The translations under genes were made by a program, and so were the position numbers. A stretch of 60,807 bases of DNA, taken from positions 1 to 60,807 of the IMG/VR virus record IMGVR_UViG_3300045944_000168; one strand, written 5' to 3'. Under the pieces are notes generated by a model, which was not told the DNA's origin, searched no databases, and was given only the letters and a program-made list of their open reading frames with translations. Below, one piece after another: positions 3,706 to 56,532 of this stretch; positions within the stretch are counted from its first letter, which is position 1; every line of letters starts with the position of its first letter. The stretch comes from a virus.

Positions 3706-5016
3706 GTGATCGACGTATTGATCAACATGAACATGAAACTTGTCCTCATCGTCTGCCCGAAGTCCGTGGTCGATGTGTGGCCGGCGCAGTTTGCGCAGCA
3801 TAGTGCGCGACCGTTTACGGTCTGCGCCCTCACAAACGGGTCTACGGCGCAACGGGCGCGAGCGGCTAAGCAGGCGGTGGAACTGGCTGCTGCGCGGCAC
3901 GCAGCAATCGCCGTCATCATCAACTATGAAGCCTCATGGATGGGCGAACTGGGTACGTGGATTACGACCCAAGACTGGGATGCCGTGATCTGCGACGAAA
4001 GCCACCGGATCAAGCAACCCGGCGGGAAAGCTGCCTTATTCTTTAGTCGGCTCGGCGATAAAGTTCCTGTTCGCTTATGCCTCACGGGAACGCCCCTCCC
4101 GCACAGTCCACTCGATGCGTATAGCCAGTATCGCTTCCTTGATAAAGGCATTTTCGGTACCTCGTTCACGCTCTTTCGCAACCGATACGCCATCACCCAG
4201 CAGATTGGCGCGAACATCAACGCGAAGAAGGTGATCGGCTTTCAGAATCAACAAGAATTGCATGACAAAATGTATTCCATTGCGTTTCGTGTCAAAGCCG
4301 AAGACGTGCAAGATCTCCCTGAGATTGTGGATGTGGTGAGAACTGTTCAGCTCAGCCGTGAGGCGCGACGGGTGTACGAGGAACTAAAGCGCGAGTTTGT
4401 GACGGACTTCAAGAACGGGCAGATTACCGCCGGCAATGCCTTGACGCGCCTCCTGAGACTACAACAGATAGCCTCAGGGTGGGTGAAGTACGACGACAAC
4501 ATCGAACTCGGCACGCCGGGCGCGTTGGTGCGGGTGGACCATGAAAAAGAAAAACTGTTGGAAGACATTCTCGAAGATCTATCAGCAGATGAGCCTGTCA
4601 TCATATTCTGCCGATTTAGGCATGATTTGCAAACCGTACATGAGGTGTCGAAGAGATTAAAGCGCGGCAGTCTGGAACTATCTGGATCAGCCAATCAGCT
4701 CGCCGAATGGCAGGCCGGCGCAGCACCGATTCTCGCAACGCAGATTCAGAGCGGTGGAGTTGGGGTTGACCTGACACGTGCAAGATACTGCGTTTTTTTC
4801 TCGTTGGGGTTCTCGCTTGGCGAATACTTACAGGCACGCAAAAGAGCGCACCGACCGGGTCAAACGAGGGCCGTTACTATCATCCATGTCATAGCATCGA
4901 AGACTGTCGACCAAGACGTTTACACTGCTTTAGAGAATCGAGAAGCTGTCGTCGAAGCCATTTTAAATCAGACGGCCAAAGGCTCTGATCGTCTAAATAT
5001 CTCAAAAGAAAGTTAG
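3706..5016 (+). pseudogene. SNF2-family helicase, C-terminal fragment (both RecA-like lobes)
   Basis: Carries most helicase motifs: DESH (II), LTGTPL (III), GGVGVDLTRA (V) and QARKRAHRPGQ (VI), so it is an SNF2/SWI2-like ATPase expected to remodel DNA during phage replication. Upstream in the same frame, 3655-3702 encodes GAAMLALDMGTG, then TGA at 3688-3690, then GKSKVV: Walker A split by a stop. Translation from GTG 3706, with AAAGG just upstream, would give a 436-aa protein without Walker A. The 3' end overlaps the convergent HNH gene by 128 bases. Confidence 0.75.
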
Positions 5017-8870: not shown

Positions 8871-9028
8871 AATATTTCGTTATCAAAATTCAAATAAATC
8901 AATGCTTTAGTGTGGATAACAAAAAAAGTTGTTATCTTTTTTGATAGTTACTTTAACATTGAGTGATAACAAAACAATATTACCGCAACAACATGAGCGG
9001 TCTGCCGCTCGGCAGAAAGGAGGTCACT

Positions 9029-11482
9029 ATGAATACCAGGGGAACTGAATATCGAATTTTCGGACCACCTGGGACAGGGAAAACCACAACGGTGAGTCGA
9101 TTGGTGACGCAAGCGTGCAAAGAATATGGGTCAGAATATGTGCTGGCGGCGTCATTCACGCGGACGGCCGCACGGGAACTCGTGCAACGCGATCTACCCA
9201 TGAATGATGAGCAGATTGGGACCCTCCATGCCCTGTGTTATCGCCAACTGGATCGGCCGAAGATTATTACGAGGACCCACCTGAAAGACTGGAACGCGGA
9301 GCATCCGCAATGGCGGTTCGATGGGGCAGGGGCCTCCGATATCGATGACCCGTATGGCGATATCGAAGCCAATGGACAACAGGACGGTGACCGAATTCTC
9401 CAGGAATACCATCGGCTACGTGGACTGCTGGTGCCACCCGAAGAATGGCCGATCAAAATTCAATGGTTTGCGGAACGGTGGACCGATTTCAAAACGCAAA
9501 CCGGCTTGATCGATTTCACCGACCTGATTGAGCAATGCTGGCGTGAACGGACCGAAATCCCCAATGGTGCCGCCGTCTTCTTCCTGGATGAAGTGCAGGA
9601 CTTTTCTCCACTGGAATTAGCTCTTGCTCGGCATTGGGGAGAACAATGCGACCGCGTATATTTATGCGGAGATGAGGATCAATGCCAACCAGGAGAGAGT
9701 CTTGTTCGAGCGACGTGTGGGGATGTGCCGATCAAAGCGCTCGATCCAACGCTCCATCGTCTCGTAAGTTATGACCGCACAAAGAGCATTCTCGTTGGAC
9801 AGAAAGAAGGCTACGCTTTTCAAAAATCTGAGCGCTTCTATCAAGGTCGAATGATGACCGTGAAGACGACGGTCACTGCTGGCGCGCAATGCACGCCTAA
9901 TCACCGGTGGTTGGTTCGATGGCATGAGACGGCCAAGCACCCATCGGTCCATGTGGTTTATCTTATGCAACAAGATGCACGCTTTCGTATTGGGTGGTGC
10001 CGGTTATTTCGGGCCGATGGCTGCTTCCATCTTGGGACACGCGCCAGATTGGAATCCGCTGATGCCGCGTGGATTCTTCGTGTCTGTACCAATCGCAGCG
10101 AGGCATCGTTATGGGAATCTATCCTCTCAACCCGCTACGGCATTCCAACGATTCCGTTCCGTGAGGTAGTTGGCGCAACTCACTATACCGCTGCCGGTAT
10201 TGACTTTATCTTTTCCAAACTCTCCGATCTGAGGACAAACGCTGTCCAGTGCCTCATAGATCATGGACGTGATCTGGCCTTTCCCATCTGGACCCCACAA
10301 CAAGCATTCGCTCGTCGAGGAGGTACCTCAATCATTGAGATCGAAGCCTGTAACCTCCTCTCAGAATTCATGTGTGTGCCAGTCGTGGATGGACGTCGCA
10401 CTGTGTGGCATCCCATCACCATCACGGAGATGCCTTTTCATGGCACGGTCTATTCCCTTGCGGTTGAACCCTATCACCTCTACATTACCCATGGACTGGT
10501 GACCCATAATTGCCTGTACCGCTTTAAAGGCGCAATTCCCGATACCTTTCTCTCGCCGGAGCTCCCACCTGAACAAGTACAAGTCCTCGATCAGTCGTAT
10601 CGCGTGCCACGTACAGTGCATGCTGCAGCAGTCAGATGGATCGACCAGGTGACGCACCGGATGCCGAAAGCGTATCGTCCGCGAGACGAGGACGGGGAAG
10701 TCGGCGGACTCAATATCACGTACAAATATCTGCTCCCCCTGAAAAATCAGCTCGATGAGTGGATGGACCAAGGTAAAACCATTGCTTTCTTAGCGTCCTG
10801 TTCGTTCTTTCTTGATCCCCTCAAACATCAATTGCGCGCATGGGGCATTCCGTTCTGGAATCCGTACCGCAAGAAACGAGGGGATTGGAACCCGCTGACT
10901 GGGCGTGCGGGCACGATCAGCGCGACCGAGCGACTCCTGTCGTATCGCAAGCTGATCGATGCCGGCGAATGGTGGTCGTATCGGGACTTGTGGCAGTGGG
11001 CGTCTACACTGGAAGCCGACAGCGTGTTTAGTCGTGGTGCCAAAACGGCGATGCGTAAGAAAGCGGAAGATGCCCAGATGGCCAAGGTAGCGGTGGCTAC
11101 AGACGACTTGGACGCCTGGATGCCAGGTGAAGAAGCGGCTGATGCCGCAACAAAAGGAGATGTGGCATGGCTGCAAGCGCATCTCTTATCGACGTACGAC
11201 AAGCCGATGCGGTATGCCTGTTCGATTTTTGAGGCGCGTGGTCTCTCAGCGCTGCGCGAGACGCCACGAGTCAGCATCGGCACCATCCACAGTTACAAAG
11301 GAGGTGAAAGTCAGATTGTGGTGCTGTTTCCGGACCTCTCCCCAGCAGGATTCCGTGAATGGTCAACGCCTGGTGAGTGCCATGACAGCGTGCGGCGCAC
11401 CTACTACGTCGGGATGACCAGGGCGAAGGAAGCCTTGTATTGGGCGCAACCGTGCGGACTTTCAATCGGAGGGTACCTATGA
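9029..11482 (+). CDS. UvrD/PcrA-like SF1 helicase with in-frame intein
   Basis: A 3'-5' superfamily 1 DNA helicase, probably the replicative helicase of the phage. ATG 9029 is chosen over upstream starts because AAAGGAGG lies at 9016-9023. Walker A GPPGTGKT is at residues 12-19. Motif II LDEVQD comes before the insertion, and QSYRVPRTVH follows it. The C-terminus has GTIHSYKGGE and YYVGMTRAKEAL (motifs V/VI). Motif III reads GDEDQ, then 276 foreign residues, then CLYRFKGA. Splicing would leave a 541-aa helicase with motif III restored, so the gene appears functional. The stop overlaps the next ATG. Confidence 0.88.
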   Translation: MNTRGTEYRIFGPPGTGKTTTVSRLVTQACKEYGSEYVLAASFTRTAARELVQRDLPMNDEQIGTLHALCYRQLDRPKIITRTHLKDWNAEHPQWRFDGAGASDIDDPYGDIEANGQQDGDRILQEYHRLRGLLVPPEEWPIKIQWFAERWTDFKTQTGLIDFTDLIEQCWRERTEIPNGAAVFFLDEVQDFSPLELALARHWGEQCDRVYLCGDEDQCQPGESLVRATCGDVPIKALDPTLHRLVSYDRTKSILVGQKEGYAFQKSERFYQGRMMTVKTTVTAGAQCTPNHRWLVRWHETAKHPSVHVVYLMQQDARFRIGWCRLFRADGCFHLGTRARLESADAAWILRVCTNRSEASLWESILSTRYGIPTIPFREVVGATHYTAAGIDFIFSKLSDLRTNAVQCLIDHGRDLAFPIWTPQQAFARRGGTSIIEIEACNLLSEFMCVPVVDGRRTVWHPITITEMPFHGTVYSLAVEPYHLYITHGLVTHNCLYRFKGAIPDTFLSPELPPEQVQVLDQSYRVPRTVHAAAVRWIDQVTHRMPKAYRPRDEDGEVGGLNITYKYLLPLKNQLDEWMDQGKTIAFLASCSFFLDPLKHQLRAWGIPFWNPYRKKRGDWNPLTGRAGTISATERLLSYRKLIDAGEWWSYRDLWQWASTLEADSVFSRGAKTAMRKKAEDAQMAKVAVATDDLDAWMPGEEAADAATKGDVAWLQAHLLSTYDKPMRYACSIFEARGLSALRETPRVSIGTIHSYKGGESQIVVLFPDLSPAGFREWSTPGECHDSVRRTYYVGMTRAKEALYWAQPCGLSIGGYL
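9683..10510 (+). other. intein in helicase motif III (276 aa)
   Basis: Self-splicing protein element. It begins with Cys1 at 9683 (CQPGESLVRATCGDVPIKALD, block A). Block B is ITAGAQ-like with CTPNHRWL, block F is TVYSLAVEPYHLYI, and it ends in HGLVTHN with Asn at 10508-10510. The +1 extein residue is Cys at 10511. No LAGLIDADG motif is visible. The middle has VVYLM, RFRIG and later LWESILSTRYGIPT, a spacing that recalls a GIY-YIG-like nuclease fold, which I offer only as a possibility. The insertion site is the conserved ATP-sensing GDxxQ motif, a typical intein target. Confidence 0.88.
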
Positions 11483-33930: not shown

Positions 33931-35084
33931 TGACACGGATCATTCTCCTGTTTCTCCTGCTCTTCTGTTGGTCCAGTGCGCCACAGGCGCAGCTGGCCAA
34001 AGTGGTGTATCTCGCGCCATATGACGGAGACGGGAGCGGAGAGAACCCGTTCCGCCCACGTGGGATGGACGAACAGACCGGATGTATCGATGTGCGCAAG
34101 AATCCAGAGCAAGCGGCCGGGGTCGCGATCTGTGGACGCCAGAGTCTTCCGGCGGGAACCGGCTATATCGAACTCTCAAATCGGTTGGACGGCATCTTGA
34201 GCCGTGCACAGCGACAGGCGATCGAAAGTCGTCTATTGGACGGCGACACGCTTACGGCCACGGACGTACCGGGCATTCTCGTGGAACTCTTGATTGATCG
34301 GCGGAGCGGCGCAAATAAGCTCCGCCAGAATCGTGACGGGAAATACCACATTTATCTCGGTCGAGAAGAGGCGGTCAAGCGCACGGCCTGGCTCTACGAT
34401 CAGTGGCACGTGAACGATAACGGTCTTGTGGCTGATACCACTAATGCCGTTTTCGCGCTACTGCAACCATCGCTCGCGTGGGCGGCCTCCTATACCGAAG
34501 ATTGGGACTGTGCCGACAACGCGGCGCTCACCTGCGACCTCACATGGACGGAAGTCACCGGGACAGGGTGGGAGATTTTCTCCAACGTGGCTCGCACCCT
34601 GACGACGGCGACGGGACGGGCACGCGCAGAGAGTGCGTTAGACACGGACGATCATAAAGTCTCTGCCACCATGACGACCTTTGCCATTACTGGCGGGACG
34701 TTTGGGCGCTGCGGTGTGATGGGGCGGAAAGACGGTACGTCGGCGAATAATTCATACGTGTTCGTGGCGAACAATTTCTCTACGACTAGCGGCTTCGAGC
34801 TTGGCGTGTTTACGGGCGGCGCGATTTCGGTGATTGGCACCAGTACGCAAGATCAGGTCGATGGCGATGTCCTTACGCTCATCGTGGATGGATCGAGCAT
34901 CAGTGGGGATGTCGATACGTCGGTCATCGTCGGGCCGGTGACGGATATGGCTGTTTCTGGAAATCTGTATGGCGGTATTTATAGCAACGGCAATAACACG
35001 AACTTGGATTGCCGATTGAATAATTTTGCAACTGAAGATCTCCCTCCTCCTCCATGGAGTGGAGTGTTAAGGAGACGTGCATGA
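33930..35084 (+). CDS. secreted fibre-like protein, 384 aa
   Basis: Start overlaps the previous stop at one base (TAATG). N-terminal IILLFLLLFCWSSAPQAQ is a strong signal peptide. The N-terminal domain has KVVYLAPYDGDGSGENPFRPRG and is rich in charged residues. The C-terminal half resembles a concanavalin/laminin-G-type beta sandwich (FGRCGVMGRKDGT..NSYVFVANN). Possibly binds a glycan. Confidence 0.55.
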   Translation: MTRIILLFLLLFCWSSAPQAQLAKVVYLAPYDGDGSGENPFRPRGMDEQTGCIDVRKNPEQAAGVAICGRQSLPAGTGYIELSNRLDGILSRAQRQAIESRLLDGDTLTATDVPGILVELLIDRRSGANKLRQNRDGKYHIYLGREEAVKRTAWLYDQWHVNDNGLVADTTNAVFALLQPSLAWAASYTEDWDCADNAALTCDLTWTEVTGTGWEIFSNVARTLTTATGRARAESALDTDDHKVSATMTTFAITGGTFGRCGVMGRKDGTSANNSYVFVANNFSTTSGFELGVFTGGAISVIGTSTQDQVDGDVLTLIVDGSSISGDVDTSVIVGPVTDMAVSGNLYGGIYSNGNNTNLDCRLNNFATEDLPPPPWSGVLRRRA

Positions 35085-37879
35085 TGAAGCAGGCATTGTT
35101 TGCTGTGGTCTGTTTGCTCTGGCTGACAACGGCATATTGGCTCACGTTTGCGCAGGCTCCGATCGTGACGTATTGGGTTTCTCCCTCTGGGAGTGACGCG
35201 AATGCCTGTTCGGCAGTCGATGGGAGCACTGATCCCGGCGTGTATAAAGCGACGCCAAACGGGGTCATGACCTGCCTCACAGGGGGCGGGAAGGCCATTA
35301 TTCGAGCTGGAACGTATACCGGTTCGACGGCCCATTTCCGCAATCTGCCGTCCGGGACGCCAGGATCTCCCATCATTATTGAAGGCGATCCCAACGATTC
35401 TCCAGGATGTGCGTTGGCCGAAACGTGTTCAACGATTTTGCAGCCGGCCACTGGGTCTGTGAACTCCATCATTCCAGCGTCAAATTATATTATCCGCAAG
35501 TTCATTATCGATCATACGAACAACCGGAATTATCCGATCCGCATTGGTGGGAATGGAGTGACGACTTGTACTAACGTCCTGATTGAGGATGTGGTTTTGC
35601 GGAACACGCAACTGTCTGATGGTGGAGCCGGGGGAGCTACGGGGCTGATTACGGATGATGCTTGTAATTTCATTACCTTCAGACGGATGCATATTCATCA
35701 TAATGGGGAAGTCCCTGGCGGTGGCCCTGGCGGGTATTTTCAGAGTGATGATACGACGTTTGAGGATGGGTGGGTTCACCATAACTCATATATTGGGATT
35801 CAGTGCTACAGCTCTTTCCCCGGAGTTGCGAGACCGGATCGATGCAAAATCTTACGATCGATCATCGAAAACAACGATAATGCAGGAATATTTCTCGAAG
35901 GAGACGATGATGAAGCCATTGGAAATATCATCAGGAACAACGGAGGAGGAATCGATACGGGGTCAAACGGCGCGGCTAGAGCGCATATCTACAATAATGT
36001 CATCGCAAACGGTAGTATCAACATCGGCGCATCAGGGTCTGGACCTAACTCGATCATTCGAAACAATATTATGATGGGCAATGTGACGGTCAGTGCTGGC
36101 TCCACGGGGACGATTGTGTCTCACAATGCGTGCCTATCATCCAGTAATTGTGGGACGAATAAGCTGACGATTGCATCTATTGCTGATCTGACCGTTTCGT
36201 CCAGCAATTTCAGTTTGAAACCAGGTTCTGCGGCGATTAATGCGGGTATCGATGTCGGGTTGCCGTTCAACGGATCGGCTCCTGATATCGGCATGAGTGA
36301 AACCTTTCTTGTCTCGTCCGCGACGGTGGCGACCAATGTCGTTGAAGTGGTTGTCGGCATGAACCTGAATACGCCGGTTGTCCCGACCTCATCTGGTTGG
36401 TCGGTAGGCTGTACTGGAACGGGATGCGGATCTCCAGTCGTTTCGACTGTTACGCTGAAATCAGGCACCAGCGCCACGATCCAACTGGTGATTACGGGGA
36501 TTACCGGCACGAACTGTGATGCCGGCCAAACCTGGACCGTGAGCTATTCCAGTGCGACCGGCACTACGACGAATTTTACGTGGGTTGTCAATCGGCAAGC
36601 CTTGACGAGTGCTACGAATTTCGCAGTGACGAACAATTGTACGGGCGGTGGGCCACCTCCACCGGCCGGATTGCATATTTATTACAAGCTTGATGATGGG
36701 ACCGGTACGAATGCCAACGATGAGACAGCGAACAATCTGGATGGGACCTTAACGAATAGTCCAGCGTGGGTCGCGGCCCGCAATGGGCAGGGTGTGTCCA
36801 TCACGCAAGCCAGTACCCAATATATTGCCATGCCCTATGGTAGCGGGATCAATCCTCTCTCGCAATCGCTCACCGTCTCCTTCTGGGTCTATGTCACCGA
36901 TGTGAATTTCCTGGGAATTCGCTGGGGCGCGCCACTCGGCACGAATCAACGGCTGTATATCGGACAACAGAGCGGCACGTGGCGAATTGGCGTGCAGGAT
37001 TCTAACTACAGCACAGGGGCGTCAGATAAAGCAGTGGAAGTCGGCTGGACGCATCTTTGTATGACAGTGGACAACGCGACGCCTGGTAGCGGTACAGGGA
37101 CTGCGACGTTGCATGTCAATGGAGTTGCGTCAAATTCTCCGAATGCGAAGAAGACCTATACGTCCTACGCGCTAGCCGACAATTTCCGTGTGGGTGGCAT
37201 TGCAGCGAATCCTACTCCCGGAGGCATCTATGACGATGTAAAACTATGGCTTGGTATTGTTTCTTGTGCCGACGATTTTGCTTCCTCTAATCCTCCTACT
37301 TCTCCGTGGATCGGCACACTTTCGTCTGTCGCTGCGCAATTTTATATGACCAAGACAGATCCGGCCAGTGTGCTGATCCCGCTTGGGAAAAACAACGCCA
37401 ACGTGACAATCCCTCCTGGGGGGGCATGGGCCTTGTTGCTCGAAACGAAATGCGAGGCGGGTGTGAATTGTACGCCGATCGGGCAAAAGCTCTTTTATTC
37501 CTGTGCGGCCTGTCCGAGTAATGGATCGATTTTATTGATGCCGAACACGGCGACCACGGACGGCATTGAATTTTGGGGCCAGACCACGGAGCCAGGATTG
37601 TTGAGTGGAGCACCACCGAACAAACTGACGACCGGTACGTCAGTGGATGTGGCAGGCGGAACAAACCCGAATGCCGATACAATCCCTGTGGTGGGATTGA
37701 ATCAAAATCAAAGCACGGTGATTGCGTATCTTGGCCGTATTGTTCCAGGAACGCCGACCGGGCGAACGTTCTGTATGAAGCCGCGCGAGCAATCCGGGCT
37801 CGATTTAAATGGTGGCTATACGCCGCCTGGAGGAGCGTGTGTGACGGTAGGCATTCCAACTTCGACTGGCGGGCCGTGA
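35081..37879 (+). CDS. large secreted beta-helix plus LamG-like protein
   Basis: A 932-aa protein. Signal LFAVVCLLWLTTAYWLTFAQA, then a mature start VTYWVSPSGSDANACS typical of right-handed beta-helix (pectate-lyase-like) proteins. Residues about 100-330 carry many short repeats with Asn (NYIIRKFIIDHTNN, IIENNDNAGIFLEGDD, NIIRNNGGGID). A LamG-like domain follows (HIYYKLDDGTGTNANDETANNLDG ... WTHLCMTVD). It probably binds or degrades surface polysaccharide. It is the last and largest of the signal-bearing group. Confidence 0.65.
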   Translation: MMKQALFAVVCLLWLTTAYWLTFAQAPIVTYWVSPSGSDANACSAVDGSTDPGVYKATPNGVMTCLTGGGKAIIRAGTYTGSTAHFRNLPSGTPGSPIIIEGDPNDSPGCALAETCSTILQPATGSVNSIIPASNYIIRKFIIDHTNNRNYPIRIGGNGVTTCTNVLIEDVVLRNTQLSDGGAGGATGLITDDACNFITFRRMHIHHNGEVPGGGPGGYFQSDDTTFEDGWVHHNSYIGIQCYSSFPGVARPDRCKILRSIIENNDNAGIFLEGDDDEAIGNIIRNNGGGIDTGSNGAARAHIYNNVIANGSINIGASGSGPNSIIRNNIMMGNVTVSAGSTGTIVSHNACLSSSNCGTNKLTIASIADLTVSSSNFSLKPGSAAINAGIDVGLPFNGSAPDIGMSETFLVSSATVATNVVEVVVGMNLNTPVVPTSSGWSVGCTGTGCGSPVVSTVTLKSGTSATIQLVITGITGTNCDAGQTWTVSYSSATGTTTNFTWVVNRQALTSATNFAVTNNCTGGGPPPPAGLHIYYKLDDGTGTNANDETANNLDGTLTNSPAWVAARNGQGVSITQASTQYIAMPYGSGINPLSQSLTVSFWVYVTDVNFLGIRWGAPLGTNQRLYIGQQSGTWRIGVQDSNYSTGASDKAVEVGWTHLCMTVDNATPGSGTGTATLHVNGVASNSPNAKKTYTSYALADNFRVGGIAANPTPGGIYDDVKLWLGIVSCADDFASSNPPTSPWIGTLSSVAAQFYMTKTDPASVLIPLGKNNANVTIPPGGAWALLLETKCEAGVNCTPIGQKLFYSCAACPSNGSILLMPNTATTDGIEFWGQTTEPGLLSGAPPNKLTTGTSVDVAGGTNPNADTIPVVGLNQNQSTVIAYLGRIVPGTPTGRTFCMKPREQSGLDLNGGYTPPGGACVTVGIPTSTGGP

Positions 37880-44873: not shown

Positions 44874-47800
44874 ATGGCATCGCCTACACTTGATGCGTAC
44901 CTTGCGCAATCTCGACCGCTCAATCCTGATTATACCGATGATGAAATTATCAAGGAGTATGAGCAGGAGTATGGCCGAAACGAGACCGCCTCTGCGCTAA
45001 TTCCGTTCGATCAGTACCTTTCGAAAGCCCGCACCCTCAACCCCGAATACTCCGACGACGAAATCCGTACCTTCTGGGAAGAAGACCACGGCAGTAAAGG
45101 TGCGCCAGAAGTGACGCCGAAAGAGCTTGGCCTCTCCGGCACGCTCCTCGAAGGAGCCAAATCCACTGGACGCAGCTTACAGGCAGCGGCGCAGACCTAT
45201 TTGGGATCTGATCAGGATCTCGTTGACACAGCCAACGCTCAGCAAGACGCGCCGAAGGATCCCGCGCTTGAGGCGCTGCTCCAAGACATTCAGCAACGCA
45301 AGGACGCTCTTGGGAAAGATGCAGGATTTTTAGAGACGGCTGGCGCGTTTGGCAAAGCTGCCCTCTCGCATCCGAAAGGCGCTGGTCTGCTCTTAGCAGA
45401 GCAGGTCCCCAATACTGTGGCATCGCTTGGCTCTGCGGGGGCTGGTGCGCTGGTCGGATCGGCATTCGGCCCAGTAGGGACCGTAGCGGGTGGGTTGGCC
45501 GGCTTGTTTTTAGGCGACATTGCGTTAGAAACAGGGGGCTATGCGCTGGAAAAAGCTGCGGATGGGATGGTGACGCCTGAGGAGCGGAGTGCCATTAAAA
45601 AGGAAGGACTCATCAAGGGCGGCATTGTGGGAGCTATGGATGCAGCAACGCTCGGGATGACGAACTTCCTGACAGGAACAACCGCGCGGGCGGTCGAGCG
45701 GGCGACCGTGAAAACACTGACGGACCATGGAATTGATCTTGCGAATCGGGCGGCGGTGCAAGCGGCACGATCGAATCCGGCCATTCTCCAGGCCGTGCAG
45801 GAAAGTGCGACCCGTGCGATCGCTGGGGTCAATACACTGGGAAAGAAGATTGCTCGCGGCACAGCGGCACTGGGCGTGGAGTCACTGGGAGAAGGGGCTG
45901 GTGAATATCTCGGGCATTATGCGGCGACGGGCGAAGCCGACAAGATGGAGGCGGTGATTGAAGCGTTTGCCGGGTTGAGCCAGAGCGCCGGTGAAGTCGC
46001 GGCGACCAGTCTCTACAACAAAACACGGATGACAAGCATTCCGCAACGATTAGGAGTGGCCGATCCTGGCGTGTCGCTCGATGAAACCATTGCCCGCTCA
46101 CAAGCCGTTCTCGATGAGCGGACGACGCTGGAGCGGCTTCGCCGTGAAGACACCGAACGCCGGACGGAGGAGCAGGCTCGGTTGAAAGAGGTGGATGACG
46201 CGGCGATTGCTGATCAGCAGGCGCAGCGGTTCGCCGAGGAGCAGGCCCGCCTGCAACGGACGGAAGCCGTCACCAATCGGTTAAGCCGGGCTCAAACATT
46301 TGGGCAAGCACAGATGGCTGAGAACCTGGCCACAACCGATGAATCGGCCATGCAAGCGATAGCCGAACGTGATCGCGTCCAACGGGCTCGATCGGAGTAC
46401 GCCGAACTGCCTGCACCAGAGCGAACGAAGTCGACACCGACAGATACCCCGATTCTTGCTGGTCGTGAACCGGCTGAGGAAGGACTGATTCAGCCAGGCC
46501 AAGCGTTTACCCCACGGACACAGACTGATCTGCCTCTCAAGGAGAGGCTTGCCCAGGAACGCGCTCGGCTCATCGCGATGCGTGATCGTCGGCCCCTCCT
46601 TCCGGCAAGCCCATCCGAAGAACAACCGAACGCCCATGCGGTTTCAACGGCAGAGCCGTTGAAAAGCGCAATAGAAACCGGCTTTGCCAAAGCCTTTCCC
46701 TCCGCACGCGAAACACGAGCCCTTGTGCATGAGTCTGGCTTCCATCTAGATACGCCGGTCTTTCGAGAATATCTGAAGCAGGTGACGGGCAAAGAGGTGT
46801 TCTCGGATCTCACACCTCAAGAATTACAGAAGTTACATGATGCGCTGCAGAAGATCAAGCCGACAGAGCAACCCTCAGCGGCGCCACAAATCCCGACGCA
46901 ACCCGTGACACTGGTCGAGAAGCCGTCTGCGCCGGTCACCACCATTCCTGAGGCGCAGGTGCCGCGATCGGAGTTGCCGCCGGAGCAGAACGCCGAAGTG
47001 CTCTTGCGTGCGCAAAAAGCGCAAGCGGATATGGAGATTGCTGGAACAGAGCGTGGTGGACGATTCCAGCTTGAACAACAAGGCACAGGGGGCACGAGGG
47101 AAGTTGTTGGTCTGAAATCTCCTACGGCAGATTGGTACAAAGATCTCACGTCGGGTCCCTCGCCGGCCATTCGCGGAGATCGAAAACAATCCGCACGCGA
47201 GAAGATCGAATCGGCCATTCAAAAGATCATTCAGGATCAGGGCGCGGATCGCGGGAAAGCCGTTGAACTGGTCAAAGCGGCACTCCTGCAAGACCGTGAG
47301 TTTCATCGAACCGAATGGGGGCGGGATCTGAATTCAATCCTTGAATGGGAATGGCCGTCGTGGATGGAACAGCCTGGGCAGGCTCAGCCATCCGTTGAAG
47401 CGCTCCATCAGCTCGCCGAATCAAAAGGCATTCCCTGGGATAACAATCCAGAGTTCATGGCCTTCACGAAGCGCGTGACGGGCAAGGAGCACCTAGACGA
47501 TTTGTCGACAGAGCAGCGGAAGCTGTTAGCGCAAGCGATTGAGGCGCAAACAGAAACGCCGCCAACCACGGATCTGGTGTTGACGGCGCCACGCCAAGCA
47601 CGGGCCAAAACAAAATCTAAGGATACCGCTAAAGGCGCACAAACGTCAATCGATGTTCCTCCAGAAACCATTGGTAGCCGTCCCATCATTGGACGGGAAG
47701 CGCAACCGGAAGAGGCGCCGTTGTTCTCGAAGGCGGCGCAAGAGCCGGAGGCGGAACAGACCGCACTACCACCAGCCTCCACAACGCGCATTATGAGCAT

Positions 47801-50800
47801 GACCGAAGAGGAGGCACGAGCAACGATTGATCGACTTTCCGCGCTTGGCGAACAACGACGCAATGCGGCGAAGGATGAATCGATTCGCGCCCTTCGTCCA
47901 TCCGGTACAGACTGGCTGAATGCCGATGAGCTTGAAGAGTTAAACCAAGCGCAAACCGCGATTGGACGCCTCGAACGGGGTGCCGCGCAAGCGCGAGTGG
48001 CGCAGAAGCGTGCGGCGAAGACCACGCCTGAATCTCCCACCGGCATCATTGCTTCGGCCTTGCGCAGCGCAGCGGATCAGATCGAGGGAACGCTGACAGA
48101 TGTTGGAGAAAAGATCGGAGGTGCCAGGAAAGATAAATGGGCCGAGCGTGGACTGACGCTGGCCGATCTGGAAGGCATGACCGGCGGAGAAGAAGCGAAG
48201 TTTATTGTCAAAGCCAATATCTGGAAGCCGGACTATGCCGCGATGGTCTCGGCTGGGGCAGATCCCAAAGCAGCCGCCTTGGTGAAAGTCATCTACGATC
48301 GTCTCGCGGCAAAGCCGACGAAGGATACACCGGAAGGTCGACGCCACTATCTAACGATGATGGGGTACGTGAAAGACGTGCTCAGCGCTGTGGAGACGGT
48401 GGAGGATGCAAAGAAGGTACAAGACCGTATCTTCCAAGAAAAACTTGCATGGGGAGATAAAGGCTGGAAGGACGAACAGAAACGCGCAACACTGCATTCC
48501 GTCTATAAGAACAACGCGGACCCCTTCAGGATCGATTGGAAAGATCAGCGCAAAGCCGACAAGATGGTGGCCGAAGGCTTCCCCGCGCAAGAAGCGTGGA
48601 CACGTCGCTACAAAGTCTATCAAGAGCATCACCCTGGTAATTTGACCGAGCACGGTGCATCCGTGTACGCCAAGCGCGTCTTTGAATCGGACGATCCCTG
48701 GAAGACGACGTTTGCCAATGAGCAGGAGTTGGCAGACCGGTTCAAGGAATTGGGCGTCTGGACTGTCCTGGAAAAGTCAGGGAAGCTTGTTGGCTATCGT
48801 GCGACGAAAGCAGAAGCGGGGACACGCGCAGCTGAGGTCTATGCAAACAAAAAAACCGAAACGAGTGAGGAAGGGAACGAACCGGTACGACCGCATCTCG
48901 ATGAGCTTACGCGAATGGGAGAAGACTACCGCCAAGGGCGCAATGTTACAGCCGAAGATTTTCGCCAAGCCTTTGGGTTCCGTGGCGTGGAGTTCGGCAA
49001 TTGGGCCGCATCGGATGAACGGCAAAAGCACATTAATCAGGCCTATGACGGACTGATGGATCTTGCGAATACCTTGGATATCCCACCACAAGCCATCAGC
49101 TTACACGGCACCTTAGGGATTGCCTTTGGCGCGCGCGGTGGGGGGCATGCCATGGCGCACTATGAACCGTCTAAGCTGGTGATCAATATCACCAAGATCA
49201 ACGGTCCTGGCGCGGTGGCCCATGAATGGGGGCATGCGCTTGATCATTACTTTGGTGAAGTGGATAAGCCCAATGCGTATCAAGGTGCGCCGACAGGGAT
49301 CTCCGGGTGGCGTGGGTCGCATACGAACGTTCGCCGGGAGCACCTTCGTTCAGAGATGCGGACCGCGTTCCAGCGCGTGATGAGTGCGCTCTTTGAACGA
49401 GACCGGACGAAAGCCGAGCGGGTGCGTGATATTGAATTGAGGCTTGAGCGATCTAAGATTGCGCTTGCGAAGGCCGAAGCTGCAAAGCATGAGACCGCCG
49501 ATTGGAAGAAGTACATTCTGCGACTCAAAGATGATGTGGTGGGATTCGGGAAGATGCTCACGCAGACCACCGGCGAAGAGAGGCCGGCTGGTGGATATGG
49601 GAAAGTTGAAACATCATACGTCAAAGAAGCCAGTGCGCTCTCGGGGAAGACCGGTGATTACTGGAAACGCCCCACGGAGATGTTTGCGCGGGCGTTTGAG
49701 TCCTATGTCTTCGATAAGCTCGGTCGGCAGAGTCAGTATCTGGTCCATGGTGTTGAGCCGTCACGGTTTGCAACGGGTTACAAGGGCAACCCGTACCCGC
49801 AAGGGATGGAACGTGAGACCATCAACCAGGCGTTCGACACGCTGTTTGAGACCATCGAAAGTAAGGAGACTGAGAAAGGGGTCGCGCTGTTCGACGAGCG
49901 TGAATATGAAGAGCGGGACGGTGCTGGCATGGAACCCAGCATGGAGCAGTTTGAGCAGGGGATTGAAACCGGCATTCCGATCGGTAATACCGAATGGAAG
50001 CTCATCGATTCCTCACAGCAATTTCCGCGTGCCATGATGAAGCAAACAGCCATGCGGACCTATGTGCGCAAAGTTTCTGATGTCGTTCACAAAATCTTGC
50101 AAGAAGTGGTTCCGCTTCTACAACGTGCGGATAAAACATTCGGCGATCCGACATTTATCGGATTGAGCCCAGACGATTACTACCTTGGCGTGAATCTACG
50201 TGGACCTGATCAGATTATTATGAACCCGTGGGGAGCGCTCTGGACAGCACAGACCCATATTCGACGCGGGGAAATCACTGCGGCCGAGACGCAAGAAGCC
50301 ACTGCGGCCATTATGTTGGAAACGCTGATCCATGAACTCACGCATCAGCAGGTCGTCACAAACCACACTACCGGTGATCCGGCAACACCAGTTTTTACCA
50401 GGATGTTACGCTTAAACCATGCTATTCTAGGAGCTGATCGACTTGACCGATTTCAACGCCAATTGATGGCGGTACTCACAGGAGGACCTGATGGAAGTCT
50501 CGCCCACATCGCAAAAGACCTTGAAGCACAGCTCCCCTTCTGGAACGGTGAAAATCCGCTATCTGGCGAGACTGGCCGCAGTGCTCCAAAACCCACCCGA
50601 TTCTTTCAGCGTCGCCATGTGGTTAAAGATGGCACAAGCGGACGGGCTGGACCCCCAACGTATCTACGAAGCAGCAGTGAAAGCGCGTCCCTCTCATTGG
50701 ATGAAAGCTCCGGACTACCAGGACGTAGCACCGGACTAGATCCCCTCAACCTGACATCCGAATCGCTCACCTACGACATTCCAGAACTCTCCAAACTGGA

Positions 50801-53480
50801 CGACGTTATTCGACTTGTGCAAGACAAAAATATTGATCTCGTTCGCTTGGTCGACGCGATAAAAACAGCGAACGGCTCTATCGCCGACGATCTCAATCCC
50901 GTCTTAAAGGAAGAACTCTATCTGGGCCGCGTGATGCACCAGAACGAGAACTTTTTGACCGACGAGCTGAAGCCGCTGATTCAGTCCATGCGGCTGCAAA
51001 AGGTCTCGATCAAGGATCTCGATACCTACCTGCATGCCAGGCACGCGAAGGAAGCCAACACCTACCTTCGATCGATCAATGAGGATCGGCAAGACGATAC
51101 CGAGTTCTGGGCCAAGCCGTCCGGCATGACGGACGCGGAAGCCGAACGGATTTTAGGATCAGCAGATCCTAAAATGCGGTCATTGGCTGATCGTGTCGAT
51201 AAGATCGTGGACGGCACGCGCAAGACACTGGTCAAGTACGGGTTGGAGAAACAAGAGACCATTGACGCCTGGACACACCAGTATCAGCACTATGTGCCCC
51301 TCTACCGCGAAGGGAAAGAACAGCGGATGGGGACCGGGCAAGGTCGATCAGTGCGCGGACCAGCCTCGAAGCAGCGTACCGGTTCAACGCGCGCCGTTGA
51401 AGATATCTTGGCGCATATTGCGATGGATCGTGAAAAGGCGATTGTCCGTGGAGAGAAGATGCGGCCGGTGATTGCGCTGGCTGGGTTGCTGAAGAAGCAT
51501 CCGAACCCAGACATCGCCAAGTTGGCGAAACCAACAACGGTGACCTATACGGATACTGAGACAGGCTTAGAAGTCACGATGCCCGGTCAGGTTGGCGAGT
51601 ACAATGTACCGACCATCGCGTACAAAGATCCACGCACAGGGCAGGTGGCGCGCCGTCCGGACCCGGCCTATAAAGGCCGAGACAACGTGGTGAATTTCCG
51701 AGTCGACGGCGAGGATCGCGCCATCATCTTCAATGAAGACAATGCGCGCGCAATGGAGATGGCACGCGCGCTCAAGGACCTCGATGTTGGCGATTTGAAT
51801 AAACTCTTATCCGCTGTCGGCACAGCCACCCGCTATCTGGCAGCGGTCAATACGCAGTACAATCCAATTTTCGGCATCGTGAACTTTGTGCGGGACGCGC
51901 AGTTTGCCATGCTGTCACTTTCATCGACGCCACTCAAAGGCAAGCAAGCGCAGATTGTGAACAACGCGCGGAAACTCATGGGCGGTATCTATAAGGATGC
52001 CCGTGCTGTGCGAAATGGGGAGCATCCCACGTCCGACGCGGCGCAGCTGTGGGAGCGCTTTCAAACGGTCGGTGGACCCACGGGGTATCGAGACCTGTTC
52101 CGCACCAGTAAGGATCGCGTGCATGCGATTGAAAAGCTCATGGATCCTGATTGGTGGCAGAAGACACGAGGAGGAAAGCTGCTTACCGCCGGCGGTGCGC
52201 TCAAGACGCCCACGTCCTTTCTCTTCAGTAAATTTGGCAAGGGCGTCATGGAGTGGCTGTCGGACTACAACCTCACCATGGAAAACGCGATGCGTCTGGC
52301 TGTCTTTAAGACCGGGGTGGATGCCGGATTGAGTGATGAGAAGGCGGCGTCGTTGGCGAAGAACATCACTGTCAACTTCAATAAGAAGGGTCAGATTTCC
52401 GCCCAGGCCGGCGCGTTGTACGCCTTCTTCAATGCCTCGGTTCAAGGCACAGCCAGGCTGGCTGAGACGTTGTTCGAACCAGGTAAGGTCGGAGTGTTGA
52501 GTGCCGCCGGTAAAAAGATTGTTACAGGTGGCGTCATGCTGGGCATTCTTCAAGCGATGTGGCTTGCGATGGCAGGATTCGATGATGATGAGCCACCGGA
52601 GTTTGTCAAAGCTAAGAATTTTGTGTTTCCCAATCCGTTGACTGACAAAGGCTACGGGACACTCCCTATGCCGCTCGGGTTTCATGTGTTGCCGGCTTTC
52701 GGACGGTTGGCGACAGAAGCGATCATTCATGGCAACCCTGGTAAGAAGTCCGCCGACTTTCTCTCGGCGGTGCTGGATTCATTTTCGCCGACAGGGGCAT
52801 CCGCCAGCCTCGTGCAAACACTCGCGCCAACGGCGACGGATCCACTTGTGGCCTTAAGTGAGAATAAAGACTGGACCGGAAAGCCCATCTACCGTGAAGA
52901 CTTCAATAAACTGCGACCAACGCCAGGATTCCAGCGGGCCAAGGACAGCGCGACGCCCTGGGCGCGCGGACTGTCGGAACTCCTCAATTATGTGAGCGGC
53001 GGCACGGACTACACGCCGGGAAAATTCAGTCCGTCCCCGGACGCCATTGACTATCTCATCGGCCAAGCCACAGGCGGGGTTGGTCGAGAAGTCTCGAAGG
53101 CCGCACGGACGGCAACCGGACTGGCTACTGGTGAGGAAGTCCCTTGGCATGCAGTGCCCGGCGTGGGACGGTTTGTCGGCTCAGCTGGTGATGAGGCGGG
53201 CGTACGAAGTCGGTTCTATGACAATCTTCGGCGGCTCAACGAAGAGGAAGCGGAGATCAAAGGGCGACGCGAGCACGGTGCCGACTGGGGCTCTTACCTG
53301 CGTGAGCATCCGGAGGCACGGTACGCCGACGCCGCGCAGAAGGTGGAGCGCGAGATTGCGGAGCTGACGAAACGAAAACGGGAGATGGTGCGGCGTGGAG
53401 CCAACCGCGAGATGGTCAAACTAATCGAACAGCAGATTCAGGCGCGAATGACCCGAATCAATCAGCTGGTAGAACGCTGA
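44874..53480 (+). CDS. giant polyvalent virion protein (2868 aa)
   Basis: A single frame of 2868 codons, probably packaged and ejected with the DNA. Domains in order: two N-terminal repeats (YLAQSRPLNPDYTDDEI, 9-25; YLSKARTLNPEYSDDEI, 48-64); a hydrophobic Gly/Ala region (about 173-232); coiled coils; a repeated module ending VTGKE...DL (about 616-662 and 843-891). Then come a zincin-like domain with HEWGHALDHYF (1450-1460) and PTEMFARAFESYVFD, a second HELTH (1820-1824), and an LPD38-like domain (about 2310-2540). The end is a charged coiled coil. HExxH motifs suggest metallopeptidases acting in the host. Confidence 0.85.
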   Translation: MASPTLDAYLAQSRPLNPDYTDDEIIKEYEQEYGRNETASALIPFDQYLSKARTLNPEYSDDEIRTFWEEDHGSKGAPEVTPKELGLSGTLLEGAKSTGRSLQAAAQTYLGSDQDLVDTANAQQDAPKDPALEALLQDIQQRKDALGKDAGFLETAGAFGKAALSHPKGAGLLLAEQVPNTVASLGSAGAGALVGSAFGPVGTVAGGLAGLFLGDIALETGGYALEKAADGMVTPEERSAIKKEGLIKGGIVGAMDAATLGMTNFLTGTTARAVERATVKTLTDHGIDLANRAAVQAARSNPAILQAVQESATRAIAGVNTLGKKIARGTAALGVESLGEGAGEYLGHYAATGEADKMEAVIEAFAGLSQSAGEVAATSLYNKTRMTSIPQRLGVADPGVSLDETIARSQAVLDERTTLERLRREDTERRTEEQARLKEVDDAAIADQQAQRFAEEQARLQRTEAVTNRLSRAQTFGQAQMAENLATTDESAMQAIAERDRVQRARSEYAELPAPERTKSTPTDTPILAGREPAEEGLIQPGQAFTPRTQTDLPLKERLAQERARLIAMRDRRPLLPASPSEEQPNAHAVSTAEPLKSAIETGFAKAFPSARETRALVHESGFHLDTPVFREYLKQVTGKEVFSDLTPQELQKLHDALQKIKPTEQPSAAPQIPTQPVTLVEKPSAPVTTIPEAQVPRSELPPEQNAEVLLRAQKAQADMEIAGTERGGRFQLEQQGTGGTREVVGLKSPTADWYKDLTSGPSPAIRGDRKQSAREKIESAIQKIIQDQGADRGKAVELVKAALLQDREFHRTEWGRDLNSILEWEWPSWMEQPGQAQPSVEALHQLAESKGIPWDNNPEFMAFTKRVTGKEHLDDLSTEQRKLLAQAIEAQTETPPTTDLVLTAPRQARAKTKSKDTAKGAQTSIDVPPETIGSRPIIGREAQPEEAPLFSKAAQEPEAEQTALPPASTTRIMSMTEEEARATIDRLSALGEQRRNAAKDESIRALRPSGTDWLNADELEELNQAQTAIGRLERGAAQARVAQKRAAKTTPESPTGIIASALRSAADQIEGTLTDVGEKIGGARKDKWAERGLTLADLEGMTGGEEAKFIVKANIWKPDYAAMVSAGADPKAAALVKVIYDRLAAKPTKDTPEGRRHYLTMMGYVKDVLSAVETVEDAKKVQDRIFQEKLAWGDKGWKDEQKRATLHSVYKNNADPFRIDWKDQRKADKMVAEGFPAQEAWTRRYKVYQEHHPGNLTEHGASVYAKRVFESDDPWKTTFANEQELADRFKELGVWTVLEKSGKLVGYRATKAEAGTRAAEVYANKKTETSEEGNEPVRPHLDELTRMGEDYRQGRNVTAEDFRQAFGFRGVEFGNWAASDERQKHINQAYDGLMDLANTLDIPPQAISLHGTLGIAFGARGGGHAMAHYEPSKLVINITKINGPGAVAHEWGHALDHYFGEVDKPNAYQGAPTGISGWRGSHTNVRREHLRSEMRTAFQRVMSALFERDRTKAERVRDIELRLERSKIALAKAEAAKHETADWKKYILRLKDDVVGFGKMLTQTTGEERPAGGYGKVETSYVKEASALSGKTGDYWKRPTEMFARAFESYVFDKLGRQSQYLVHGVEPSRFATGYKGNPYPQGMERETINQAFDTLFETIESKETEKGVALFDEREYEERDGAGMEPSMEQFEQGIETGIPIGNTEWKLIDSSQQFPRAMMKQTAMRTYVRKVSDVVHKILQEVVPLLQRADKTFGDPTFIGLSPDDYYLGVNLRGPDQIIMNPWGALWTAQTHIRRGEITAAETQEATAAIMLETLIHELTHQQVVTNHTTGDPATPVFTRMLRLNHAILGADRLDRFQRQLMAVLTGGPDGSLAHIAKDLEAQLPFWNGENPLSGETGRSAPKPTRFFQRRHVVKDGTSGRAGPPTYLRSSSESASLSLDESSGLPGRSTGLDPLNLTSESLTYDIPELSKLDDVIRLVQDKNIDLVRLVDAIKTANGSIADDLNPVLKEELYLGRVMHQNENFLTDELKPLIQSMRLQKVSIKDLDTYLHARHAKEANTYLRSINEDRQDDTEFWAKPSGMTDAEAERILGSADPKMRSLADRVDKIVDGTRKTLVKYGLEKQETIDAWTHQYQHYVPLYREGKEQRMGTGQGRSVRGPASKQRTGSTRAVEDILAHIAMDREKAIVRGEKMRPVIALAGLLKKHPNPDIAKLAKPTTVTYTDTETGLEVTMPGQVGEYNVPTIAYKDPRTGQVARRPDPAYKGRDNVVNFRVDGEDRAIIFNEDNARAMEMARALKDLDVGDLNKLLSAVGTATRYLAAVNTQYNPIFGIVNFVRDAQFAMLSLSSTPLKGKQAQIVNNARKLMGGIYKDARAVRNGEHPTSDAAQLWERFQTVGGPTGYRDLFRTSKDRVHAIEKLMDPDWWQKTRGGKLLTAGGALKTPTSFLFSKFGKGVMEWLSDYNLTMENAMRLAVFKTGVDAGLSDEKAASLAKNITVNFNKKGQISAQAGALYAFFNASVQGTARLAETLFEPGKVGVLSAAGKKIVTGGVMLGILQAMWLAMAGFDDDEPPEFVKAKNFVFPNPLTDKGYGTLPMPLGFHVLPAFGRLATEAIIHGNPGKKSADFLSAVLDSFSPTGASASLVQTLAPTATDPLVALSENKDWTGKPIYREDFNKLRPTPGFQRAKDSATPWARGLSELLNYVSGGTDYTPGKFSPSPDAIDYLIGQATGGVGREVSKAARTATGLATGEEVPWHAVPGVGRFVGSAGDEAGVRSRFYDNLRRLNEEEAEIKGRREHGADWGSYLREHPEARYADAAQKVEREIAELTKRKREMVRRGANREMVKLIEQQIQARMTRINQLVER
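46642..46664. repeat. perfect hairpin inside the giant gene
   Basis: TTTCAACGGC and GCCGTTGAAA, exact 10-base arms around AGA. No U-run after it. Confidence 0.5.
50491..50739 (+). CDS. candidate gene nested in +1 frame of the giant gene (82 aa)
   Basis: ATG 50491 is preceded by AGGAGG at 50480-50485, an ideal spacing of 5 bases. The product looks natural: VKIRYLARLAAVLQNPP, DSFSVAMWLKMAQADG, LDPQRIYEAAVKARPSHW. The giant frame over the same bases is Ser/Arg/Pro-rich and low-complexity (SSSESASLSLDESSG) and lies between two clearly conserved domains. So an independent gene seems to be nested here and the giant frame may be a permissive linker. No family recognised. Confidence 0.5.
   Translation: MEVSPTSQKTLKHSSPSGTVKIRYLARLAAVLQNPPDSFSVAMWLKMAQADGLDPQRIYEAAVKARPSHWMKAPDYQDVAPD
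51150..51175. repeat. strong hairpin inside the giant gene
   Basis: ATTTTAGGATC and GATCCTAAAAT, exact 11-base arms around AGCA. The A/T-rich outer ends resemble a bidirectional terminator without a long U-run. It encodes ILGSADPKM in the giant frame. Confidence 0.55.
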
Positions 53481-55144: not shown

Positions 55145-56254
55145 TTATGATGTCTCATCTACGGTCTTGCTACGGTTTGAATGGATCTCCAAGAGAGTCT
55201 TGATCGGCAATAGGCTCATGGCTCGGCGCTGGGCCGCTAAATCAACATCCAAGTAGAAAGTGGCTGTGGTACGAATATCGGCGTGACCGAGTGTCGTTTG
55301 GACGCTCTTGAGATGATCGCCAGCCTCCATTCGATGTGTTCCGTGTGAATGCCGAAAACGATGCGGACTCACTCGAAATCCCACGATCTTACTGATTCGA
55401 TCGTACTTGCTTTTGATTCCTTCTTCGCCAAGTCGCCCACCATTTACGGAGAAGATGTACTCAGAATCAATGATGCATTCCGCTTCGCGGATGATCTGAC
55501 TGAGGTCAGACGTGAGCGCAATGAGCTTAGGTTGGTTTTCTTTGTTGGTCGGAATTTCCACATAGCCTTGATCCCACCGAACGGCGCGGCGAGTCACGTT
55601 GCACAGTTCCCCTAATCGACACCCAGTGGCATAGAAGAACAGCGTTACGAGTTGCCAGAAGCGGGAGCAGGCGGCGAGGACGAGGGGCAACTGTTCCTGG
55701 TAAAGCCGCTTCGGTCTCGTCTTAATGACCTTGGCTCGATCCAGCGCGGCAAATGGGTTGACGCTGATCCACTTCCATTTGACAGCACGGTTGAAAATGG
55801 CGCGAAGAATCGCGCGACGACTGTTCCACGTTGACGGGGCGAGTGTAGGCTTGATGGCCGTTTGGTAGTCTCGGAGCCACGCTTCGTTCAGATCGGCCAA
55901 GTCGGCTGTGGGTCGAAATCTGAGCAGACTGTCCAGCGCCCACCGTTCTGTGCGATTGAACGTGTTGCGTGAAACGAGTTGCTCAGTTAAGACCTTATGT
56001 TCGTACTCACCACAGAAGGCGCGAAGTGTCCAGCTCACGCCGATGATCGGTGCAACCTGGATCCCTAGCGCCTGCCTGGCTTTCGCCTGATTGAGTTCTA
56101 GGTCTTTGGCTTTTTGCAAGGCCTTCGCGCGAAGCGCATTTTTTGTCCGCAACGATCGGCAATGTTGACGATGGCCTCCTGGATGCGTGACGCATCCAGG
56201 CTGGCAGTACCACGACAAAAACCACGAACCTGCTCGTTTGTAGCGGGTGCTCAT
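55145..56254 (-). CDS. int: tyrosine-type integrase
   Basis: A 369-aa recombinase when started at ATG 56254, which overlaps the upstream HTH stop. N-terminal arm-binding region with Cys/His (SWYCQPGCVTHPGGHRQHC), core-binding domain, then catalytic residues: R in ATGCRLGEL, H-x-x-R in SPHRFRHSHGTH, H in LGHADIRTT and Tyr in FYLDVD. It would integrate the phage at a tRNA gene. It ends 31 bases from the attP core. Confidence 0.9.
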   Translation of the reverse strand: MSTRYKRAGSWFLSWYCQPGCVTHPGGHRQHCRSLRTKNALRAKALQKAKDLELNQAKARQALGIQVAPIIGVSWTLRAFCGEYEHKVLTEQLVSRNTFNRTERWALDSLLRFRPTADLADLNEAWLRDYQTAIKPTLAPSTWNSRRAILRAIFNRAVKWKWISVNPFAALDRAKVIKTRPKRLYQEQLPLVLAACSRFWQLVTLFFYATGCRLGELCNVTRRAVRWDQGYVEIPTNKENQPKLIALTSDLSQIIREAECIIDSEYIFSVNGGRLGEEGIKSKYDRISKIVGFRVSPHRFRHSHGTHRMEAGDHLKSVQTTLGHADIRTTATFYLDVDLAAQRRAMSLLPIKTLLEIHSNRSKTVDETS

Positions 56255-56532
56255 CTGCGCCAATGCGGCTTCAACGTGCGAATAAATTTCCGATAATGAT
56301 CGACACGATTCGGAGTATCCTTCTCCGCCGCGCGTAGAATAGTATCGAGTGGCACCTGAAGCGCGGTCGCCAGTGCGGGGTAATGGATCCACGGGACGTA
56401 TTGCACCTGGCGGTCTTCCCGGACCCAGGCCGACACACTGACCGGAGAGATATGGAGTTCATCGGCCAGATCAAACCGCTTCATCTTCAGAGAACGAAGG
56501 CGTGATTCAATCAACTGGCCAAGTGCCGTCAC
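56251..56532 (-). CDS. XRE-type HTH regulator
   Basis: GTG 56532 with GAGGG upstream. A 93-aa protein with a helix-turn-helix: KRFDLADELHISPVSVSAWVRE. Its stop overlaps the integrase start (ATGA), so both are expressed together. Candidate repressor or Cro-like switch protein. 56533-56773 (241 bases) holds only weak short frames. Confidence 0.65.
   Translation of the reverse strand: MTALGQLIESRLRSLKMKRFDLADELHISPVSVSAWVREDRQVQYVPWIHYPALATALQVPLDTILRAAEKDTPNRVDHYRKFIRTLKPHWRR

Follow-up and report, generated by a model that had tools for sequence, protein, structure and literature searches.

Background

How a single phage protein comes to carry two zinc-peptidase motifs, and whether the peptidases suggested by them would act on the chain itself or on proteins of the host, are the questions raised by a giant gene in the IMG/VR virus record IMGVR_UViG_3300045944_000168, analysed here over positions 1 to 60,807 (a stretch of 60,807 nucleotides, hereafter the window). 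Judged by its domain content, the gene product is a phage-type polyvalent protein of the class described by Iyer et al. (2017, PMC5512222), with which it shares a giant multidomain build, a zincin accompanied by LPD domains, and LPD38, given in that source as phage-type only among polyvalent proteins. Several zincins in one chain are already known and not new, since more than one is reported there for 8% of the zincin-bearing chains. The window differs from the polyvalent proteins described there in carrying an out-of-frame captured bacterial gene beside the second zincin-like segment.

The giant open reading frame and its phage setting

The polyvalent protein is encoded on the plus strand at 44874..53480 (2868 aa, without an internal stop), and all the features of the chain given below lie on this strand. 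The chain contains exactly two HExxH motifs, HEWGH at residue 1450 and HELTH at residue 1820, which an earlier note, made from the sequence alone, had taken for two zincin active sites. The pair is confirmed; by chance, two or more HExxH motifs arose in 6 of 3000 composition shuffles of the chain. Both sites also match the longer zinc-peptidase signature, PROSITE PS00142, and two such sites occurred in none of 5000 shuffles. LPD38, LPD1, a partial LPD5 and GemA-like repeats are found together in the chain, and genes for a terminase, a portal, a major head protein and an integrase are found in the window, as expected for a polyvalent protein of the phage type.

The matches of the capsid protein include N4-gp56-type capsids, and the phage is probably short-tailed. 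It is probably also temperate, since a tyrosine integrase gene is present on the minus strand (55145-56392). Other genes of the window include a UvrD-like helicase (839 aa, 8963-11482) and a protein of 941 aa that combines beta-helix with laminin-G-like parts (35054-37879) and is likely to be a tail spike or fibre.

The N-terminal repeats described in the earlier note were recovered as two tandem copies (44889..45095; residues ~6-35 and ~45-74, second copy i-E ~0.003), whose sole resemblance, a weak one, is to the end of the ORF lying directly upstream of the giant ORF in locus L031 (2-907, E 1.3e-5) and its duplicate L032. They are followed by a Gly/Ala-rich segment (45381..45608; residues 170-245) with weak PHROG matches, one spanning residues 174-384 (E 2.2e-8) and another, to a tail-associated lysin, spanning residues 185-244 (E 5e-4). 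Two GemA-like repeats (46761..47579; residues 630-672 and ~838-902) were detected with Pfam GemA as two stretches (E 2e-6, 29.2 bits against a cut-off of 27), the match of the repeats to each other being weak. Directly before the first zincin there is a weak match to the final 21 positions of LPD5 (E 0.0022). A membrane-active segment, also proposed earlier, is weakly borne out: the Gly/Ala-rich segment shows no hydrophobic peak, and the one 19-residue window of the chain that exceeds 1.6 on the Kyte-Doolittle scale (residues 2549-2567) falls within the C-terminal module.

The constant C-terminal module

The last part of the chain, residues 1967-2868 (50772..53477), is a constant module that includes the hydrophobic stretch (52518-52574) and LPD38 (52587-53162; residues 2572-2763, Pfam E 2.8e-40), in agreement with the LPD38-like end noticed earlier. 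A pattern search of viral_contigs for the module yielded 342 stretches, of which 295 proved to be relatives and the best 80 were kept, and 15 loci were obtained from genome_contigs, the best being those of a Magnetococcales MAG (62%) and a Nitrospirales MAG (54%). Many positions are invariant among 72 aligned rows. The AlphaFold model of the module (mean pLDDT 76.9) has 70 matches at E <= 0.001 in BFVD, which extend over the length of the module and fall on the ends of giant proteins from other phages (best E 3.6e-63), some of them annotated as LPD38 or lytic transglycosylase proteins. Comparison of the model with the PDB gave no useful match (best E 0.12, best Z 6.6), nor did searches of the PDB by sequence yield a significant one.

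Among the closest described parallels are JC1 gp69 and DC1 gp67 of the Bcep22-like podoviruses, which likewise are giant proteins ending a block of virion genes, with LPD38 near the C-terminus (PMC9144972). JC1 gp69 (4515 aa, LPD38 at 4195-4401) was represented by 51 unique peptides from CsCl-purified virions in that report. The DC1 protein matches the module of the window with E 3.6e-48 (26% identity over 818 positions) and carries HEAFH ~200 residues before the shared part. The cargo of the two proteins differs, comprising an N-terminal lytic transglycosylase and a helicase/methylase in place of the LPD1 zincin of the window (PMC9144972). The module is most likely a virion part, as suggested by the company that it keeps and by this one relative, and the delivery of the giant protein with the virion, as proposed in the earlier note, is supported through JC1 gp69 by analogy only. 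An N-terminal capsid signal has been described for DarB of phage P1 (PMC9024508).

Variable cargo and HExxH motifs in the relatives

The relatives were fetched by means of the C-terminal module with the best 80 viral loci kept, and many of the contigs are cut, which bears on the following counts. Within the 700 residues before the module, or the shorter stretch present in some chains, 71 relatives (window excluded) carry ART-PolyVal (23), LPD37 (9), LPD1 (7) and other, rarer domains. Ahead of the module, the 95 ORFs contain 75 HExxH motifs, where shuffling predicts 1.7; removal of near-duplicates left 79 chains, including the window. The motifs are densest beside the module, with 20 in the last 200 residues (0.35 expected) and 11 in the next 200 (0.30 expected). 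Upstream sequence of at least 1000 residues was available for 61 chains, of which 41 contain an HExxH, 24 contain one in the last 400 residues and 11 contain two or more. The zincins that occupy this slot belong to several families. A comparable arrangement is seen in the giants of Stx-type E. coli phages (L005, vB_EcoP_phi296), with LPD5, a HEWFH zincin, LPD1, a second HExxH (HEIIH) and the C-terminal module; these differ in having MuF_C before the module, a complete LPD5 and a second zincin that belongs to family F1.

The enrichment of HExxH just before the module, where a cut would free the latter, could be taken to mean that two active peptidases divide the chain into fragments, either ahead of packaging or once it has been injected, and autoprocessing by such domains is indeed proposed by Iyer et al. 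(PMC5512222). On the other hand, the virion RNA polymerase of N4 is packaged unprocessed according to the same source, and zincin 1 and a slot zincin are not significantly associated in the relatives (7/12 with against 16/49 without; Fisher p 0.18).

Zincin 1 and LPD1

The first site is part of a unit that begins with a region at residues ~1060-1340 (48051..48893), recognised by its plasmid matches and by a 604-aa Magnetospirillum protein, which aligned to residues 1074-1657 of the window with 37.6% identity. Next follows the first half of zincin 1 (48909..49388) with the motif HEWGHALD (HEWGH at 49221-49235), where NCBIfam NF041907 matched with E 3.4e-46 and 157.7 bits, below its cut-off of 260. 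LPD1 (49647..49865; Pfam E 7.6e-22) contains Y1596, W1597 and E1602, the codon of the last being 49677-49679.

An alignment of the window with 20 relatives was used to assess conservation; L103, devoid of the motif, was dropped from it, and L032 duplicates L031. H1429, Y1596, W1597, E1602 and R1606 are invariant in 21 of 21 rows, while the invariance of H1450, E1451, H1454 and D1457 is partly by construction, the rows having been chosen on that motif. Site 1 (residues 1346-1664) thus combines an HExxH, itself the criterion for choosing the rows, with a downstream Glu, E1602, conserved in all 21. In 20 of 21 ORFs, HExxHxxD lies within 450 residues before LPD1, taken as the best-scoring domain. 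The exception is L103 (8921-9145), where LPD1 (ORF residues 818-892) is kept, the HExxH half is lost and a slot zincin follows; this locus is a natural half-deletion of the LPD1 zincin. One MPTase type described by Iyer et al. has a conserved His at the close of strand 2 and an Asp placed three residues beyond HExxH, to which H1429 and D1457 of zincin 1 correspond (PMC5512222).

Structure prediction, suggested in the earlier note as a check, was performed for residues 1340-1965, and the model is confident for zincin 1 and not for the remainder (mean pLDDT 60.3 overall). The catalytic chains of anthrax lethal factor aligned with the model over 162-178 residues (model residues ~14-337), from before HExxH through LPD1, with Z ~8, a value tied with unrelated helical rows, and with ~16-19% identity in the listed rows. 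Foldseek against the PDB returned no match at E <= 0.001, lethal factor ranking second with E 2.2. No delivery parts are shared with lethal factor, and the likeness of fold does not imply the same target. Zincin 1 is well supported as a predicted zincin, with a modest fold match. Because of the invariant E1602 and the lethal-factor fold match, we infer that the HExxHxxD half and LPD1 together form one lethal-factor-like zincin of which LPD1 would be the second half and not a separate domain, a point of difference from the polyvalent proteins of Iyer et al. (PMC5512222).

The unit at residues ~1060-1661, comprising HExxHxxD and LPD1, is common to stand-alone proteins of plasmids, including forms of 604 aa in Magnetospirillum and ~546 aa in Acinetobacter as well as longer ones; the two short forms have neither other cargo nor the LPD38 module. 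A common gene order, made up of an M23 peptidase gene, hypothetical genes and the gene of an LPD1 protein of ~1050 aa, is seen in plasmids of Pseudomonas savastanoi (L110) and Bordetella flabilis (L112); an HU gene lies nearby. Since zincin 1 occurs also as a stand-alone plasmid protein, processing of its own chain is unlikely as its general function.

The second zincin-like segment

The segment with HELTH (49941..50477; HELTH at 50331-50345) follows zincin 1 and is possibly truncated. Over residues 1690-1868 the giant frame is favoured by codon usage, with a log-odds of 0.157 per codon against -0.27 and -0.29 for the other two frames, and the HELTH site stands in a zinc-peptidase context according to the PS00142 pattern. 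When the single sequence was compared by hhalign with the slot zincin families, the probability reached at most 43% (F1) over 9-32 columns; the scores exceeded those of five control segments in all four families, while against F3 zincin 1 outscored zincin 2.

Homologues of the segment were not found by tblastn in phages (at E 0.1, or at E 10 with a narrower query) or in plasmids (E 0.1). Pattern scans of viral_contigs, phmmer (E 0.1) against the 2357 ORFs from the fetched loci and a search of 398 genomes belonging to the phylum of L092 likewise gave none, and Pfam and NCBIfam had no match to the segment. Two weak matches (E 0.09 and 0.22) were obtained in the eight genomes behind the named loci, but no open frame of more than 150 aa at either locus contains an HExxH. 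A stretch of a Comamonas protein that seemed in BLAST to cross the segment was not reproduced with the segment alone as query.

In families F1 and F2 a downstream Glu is found at +51 to +75 in 9 of 10 and 8 of 8 rows, respectively. In the window, residues 1825-1869 after HELTH contain His and Asp and no Glu, the next Glu being residue 1884, inside the foreign segment described below. Zincin 2 is accordingly a doubtful candidate, which either belongs to another type, with His or Asp as a ligand, or has been cut short. We consider it less likely than not to be an entire peptidase from a family so far undescribed, with H1831, H1849 or an Asp as the third ligand: the motif context, the coding signal of the giant frame and the hhalign scores above the controls speak for it, against which stand the low hhalign probability over few columns, the failure of the above searches to find relatives and the low confidence of the model, from which the geometry of the ligands could not be read. 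Of the two peptidases proposed in the earlier note the first is well supported as a predicted zincin, and the second comes down to a motif, a coding signal and a weak profile likeness without a homologue. Together with the stand-alone plasmid forms of zincin 1, the missing Glu before the foreign segment led us to demote processing by two zincins from lead reading to a rival that we regard as unlikely.

An out-of-frame bacterial gene piece beside the module

Between segment 2 and the module lies a piece that was absent from the earlier observations and is new in this analysis, a captured fragment of a bacterial gene, which the giant ORF reads in the wrong frame (50480..50739; residues ~1870-1954). 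It holds a nested ORF in the +1 frame (50491..50739; 82 codons and its own stop) preceded by AGGAGG (50480-50485), five bases before the ATG. A tblastn-type search of 295 genomes of the phylum of L093 matched two, one of them over residues 1869-1949 with E 3.9e-21. The DNA is 76% identical to the bacterial copy (L113) over 237 nt without gaps, from 50482, and the encoded proteins are 68% identical in the +1 frame against 54% in the giant frame. The bacterial copy has GAGAGG, an ATG in the same place and a stop near the same place. Mismatches by +1 codon position number 13, 15 and 29 of 79 each, and the pairwise dN/dS over 252 bases is 0.23 in the +1 frame against 1.66 in the giant frame. Of 281 sliding windows along the giant ORF, 3 have a codon usage that prefers the +1 frame, and these three lie at the captured segment. 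The GC content of the segment by +1 codon position (0.61/0.45/0.65) is close to the values that the C-terminal module shows when read in its own frame (0.62/0.43/0.65).

Homologues of the nested ORF occur in 8 of 175 genomes of the family of that bacterium and, with another member as query, in 5 of 395 genomes in the phylum; none was found in the phylum of L092 (398 genomes), in phages, in plasmids or by a pattern scan of viral_contigs. The small bacterial gene family (L113, L121; motif WLEKAxxxGLDPQRIYEAAV) is sporadic, of unknown function and without a Pfam match; genome G834 has two neighbouring matches to it. The gene is accompanied by a neighbour of one and the same kind in both L113 and L121.

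These bacterial forms bear on the direction of the transfer. With a single phage copy known, the small gene might in principle have come from a phage; the stand-alone state of the bacterial forms in several genomes of the family, the shared kind of neighbour gene and the absence of homologues from phages, plasmids and the viral_contigs scan make that improbable. An assembly chimera of 260 bases we consider very improbable: the window is a single virus record and a second phage with the insert was not found, but the giant frame is open across the segment and both flanks, and the segment diverges by 24% from its nearest bacterial match.

Whether the nested ORF is a maintained gene was judged from the changes on the two branches. 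The pairwise dN/dS favours maintenance. With L121 as outgroup, which leaves 16 sites unresolved, the changes over the three codon positions are 8/10/12 for the phage branch and 4/3/12 for the bacterial one; with L122, L124 and L123 the phage branch shows 5/9/13, 8/7/11 and 8/7/14, these farther outgroups giving a mild third-position excess. The phage branch is read as relaxed or weakly constrained, and the giant frame is likewise without constraint across the segment. Because the pairwise ratio is low but the phage-branch changes are relaxed, the piece looks like a gene before its capture that is now an unconstrained spacer. Against this, the nested ORF keeps a ribosome site, a start and a stop, none of which a mere spacer would need. 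Continued expression of an 82-residue protein from its own ribosome site, with the giant frame using the same bases as a spacer beside the virion module, would turn one host gene into two phage products at once, and we hold it to be rather improbable.

The bacterial family in which the captured gene occurs is, for that reason, the likely host of this phage, and its phylum, that of the MAG titled Nitrospirales (L093), is probably Nitrospirota. The C-terminal module was found at E <= 1e-10 in none of 172 genomes of the family, which gives no prophage support to the assignment.

Codon usage favours a frame other than that of the giant gene in 237 of the 24298 windows; these come from 33 of the 89 relatives. 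In L033, L027, L075, L098, L069 and others such windows lie just before the C-terminal module, several of them at the slot occupied in the window, and out-of-frame spacers may be recurrent there. No report of an out-of-frame host gene within a polyvalent gene was met in literature searches aimed at other subjects.

Proposed delivery and action of the giant protein

The reading that we favour, and hold to be somewhat more probable than its negation, is of a virion-packaged polyvalent protein with a constant end, exchangeable cargo, a trans-acting zincin 1 and an out-of-frame spacer. The anatomy of the chain, the conservation of its parts and the capture of the bacterial piece are observed; the mode of action is proposed from these. 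The protein would be packaged in the virion of a temperate, probably short-tailed phage, and its last 900 residues would stay with the capsid or the ejection machinery as the constant module. The remainder of the chain would be exchangeable cargo, in which the sequence shows the GemA-like repeats and a complete zincin of the lethal-factor fold. Zincin 1 would enter a new host with the DNA and cut a host or plasmid protein in trans, an action suggested by the stand-alone plasmid protein, which has no cargo to release. The slot beside the module contains zincin-like segment 2 and then ~85 residues that come from a bacterial gene captured in another frame and would act as a spacer free of constraint; the third zinc ligand of zincin 2 may have been lost there.

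Conclusion

The proposed reading has two consequences for the polyvalent proteins. LPD1, a domain of unknown function, would be tied to a zincin as its second half, an assignment that is directly testable. The captured segment would be a plain example of the growth of a cargo protein, in which a gene piece enters in the wrong frame at the slot before the constant module and is tolerated as a spacer.
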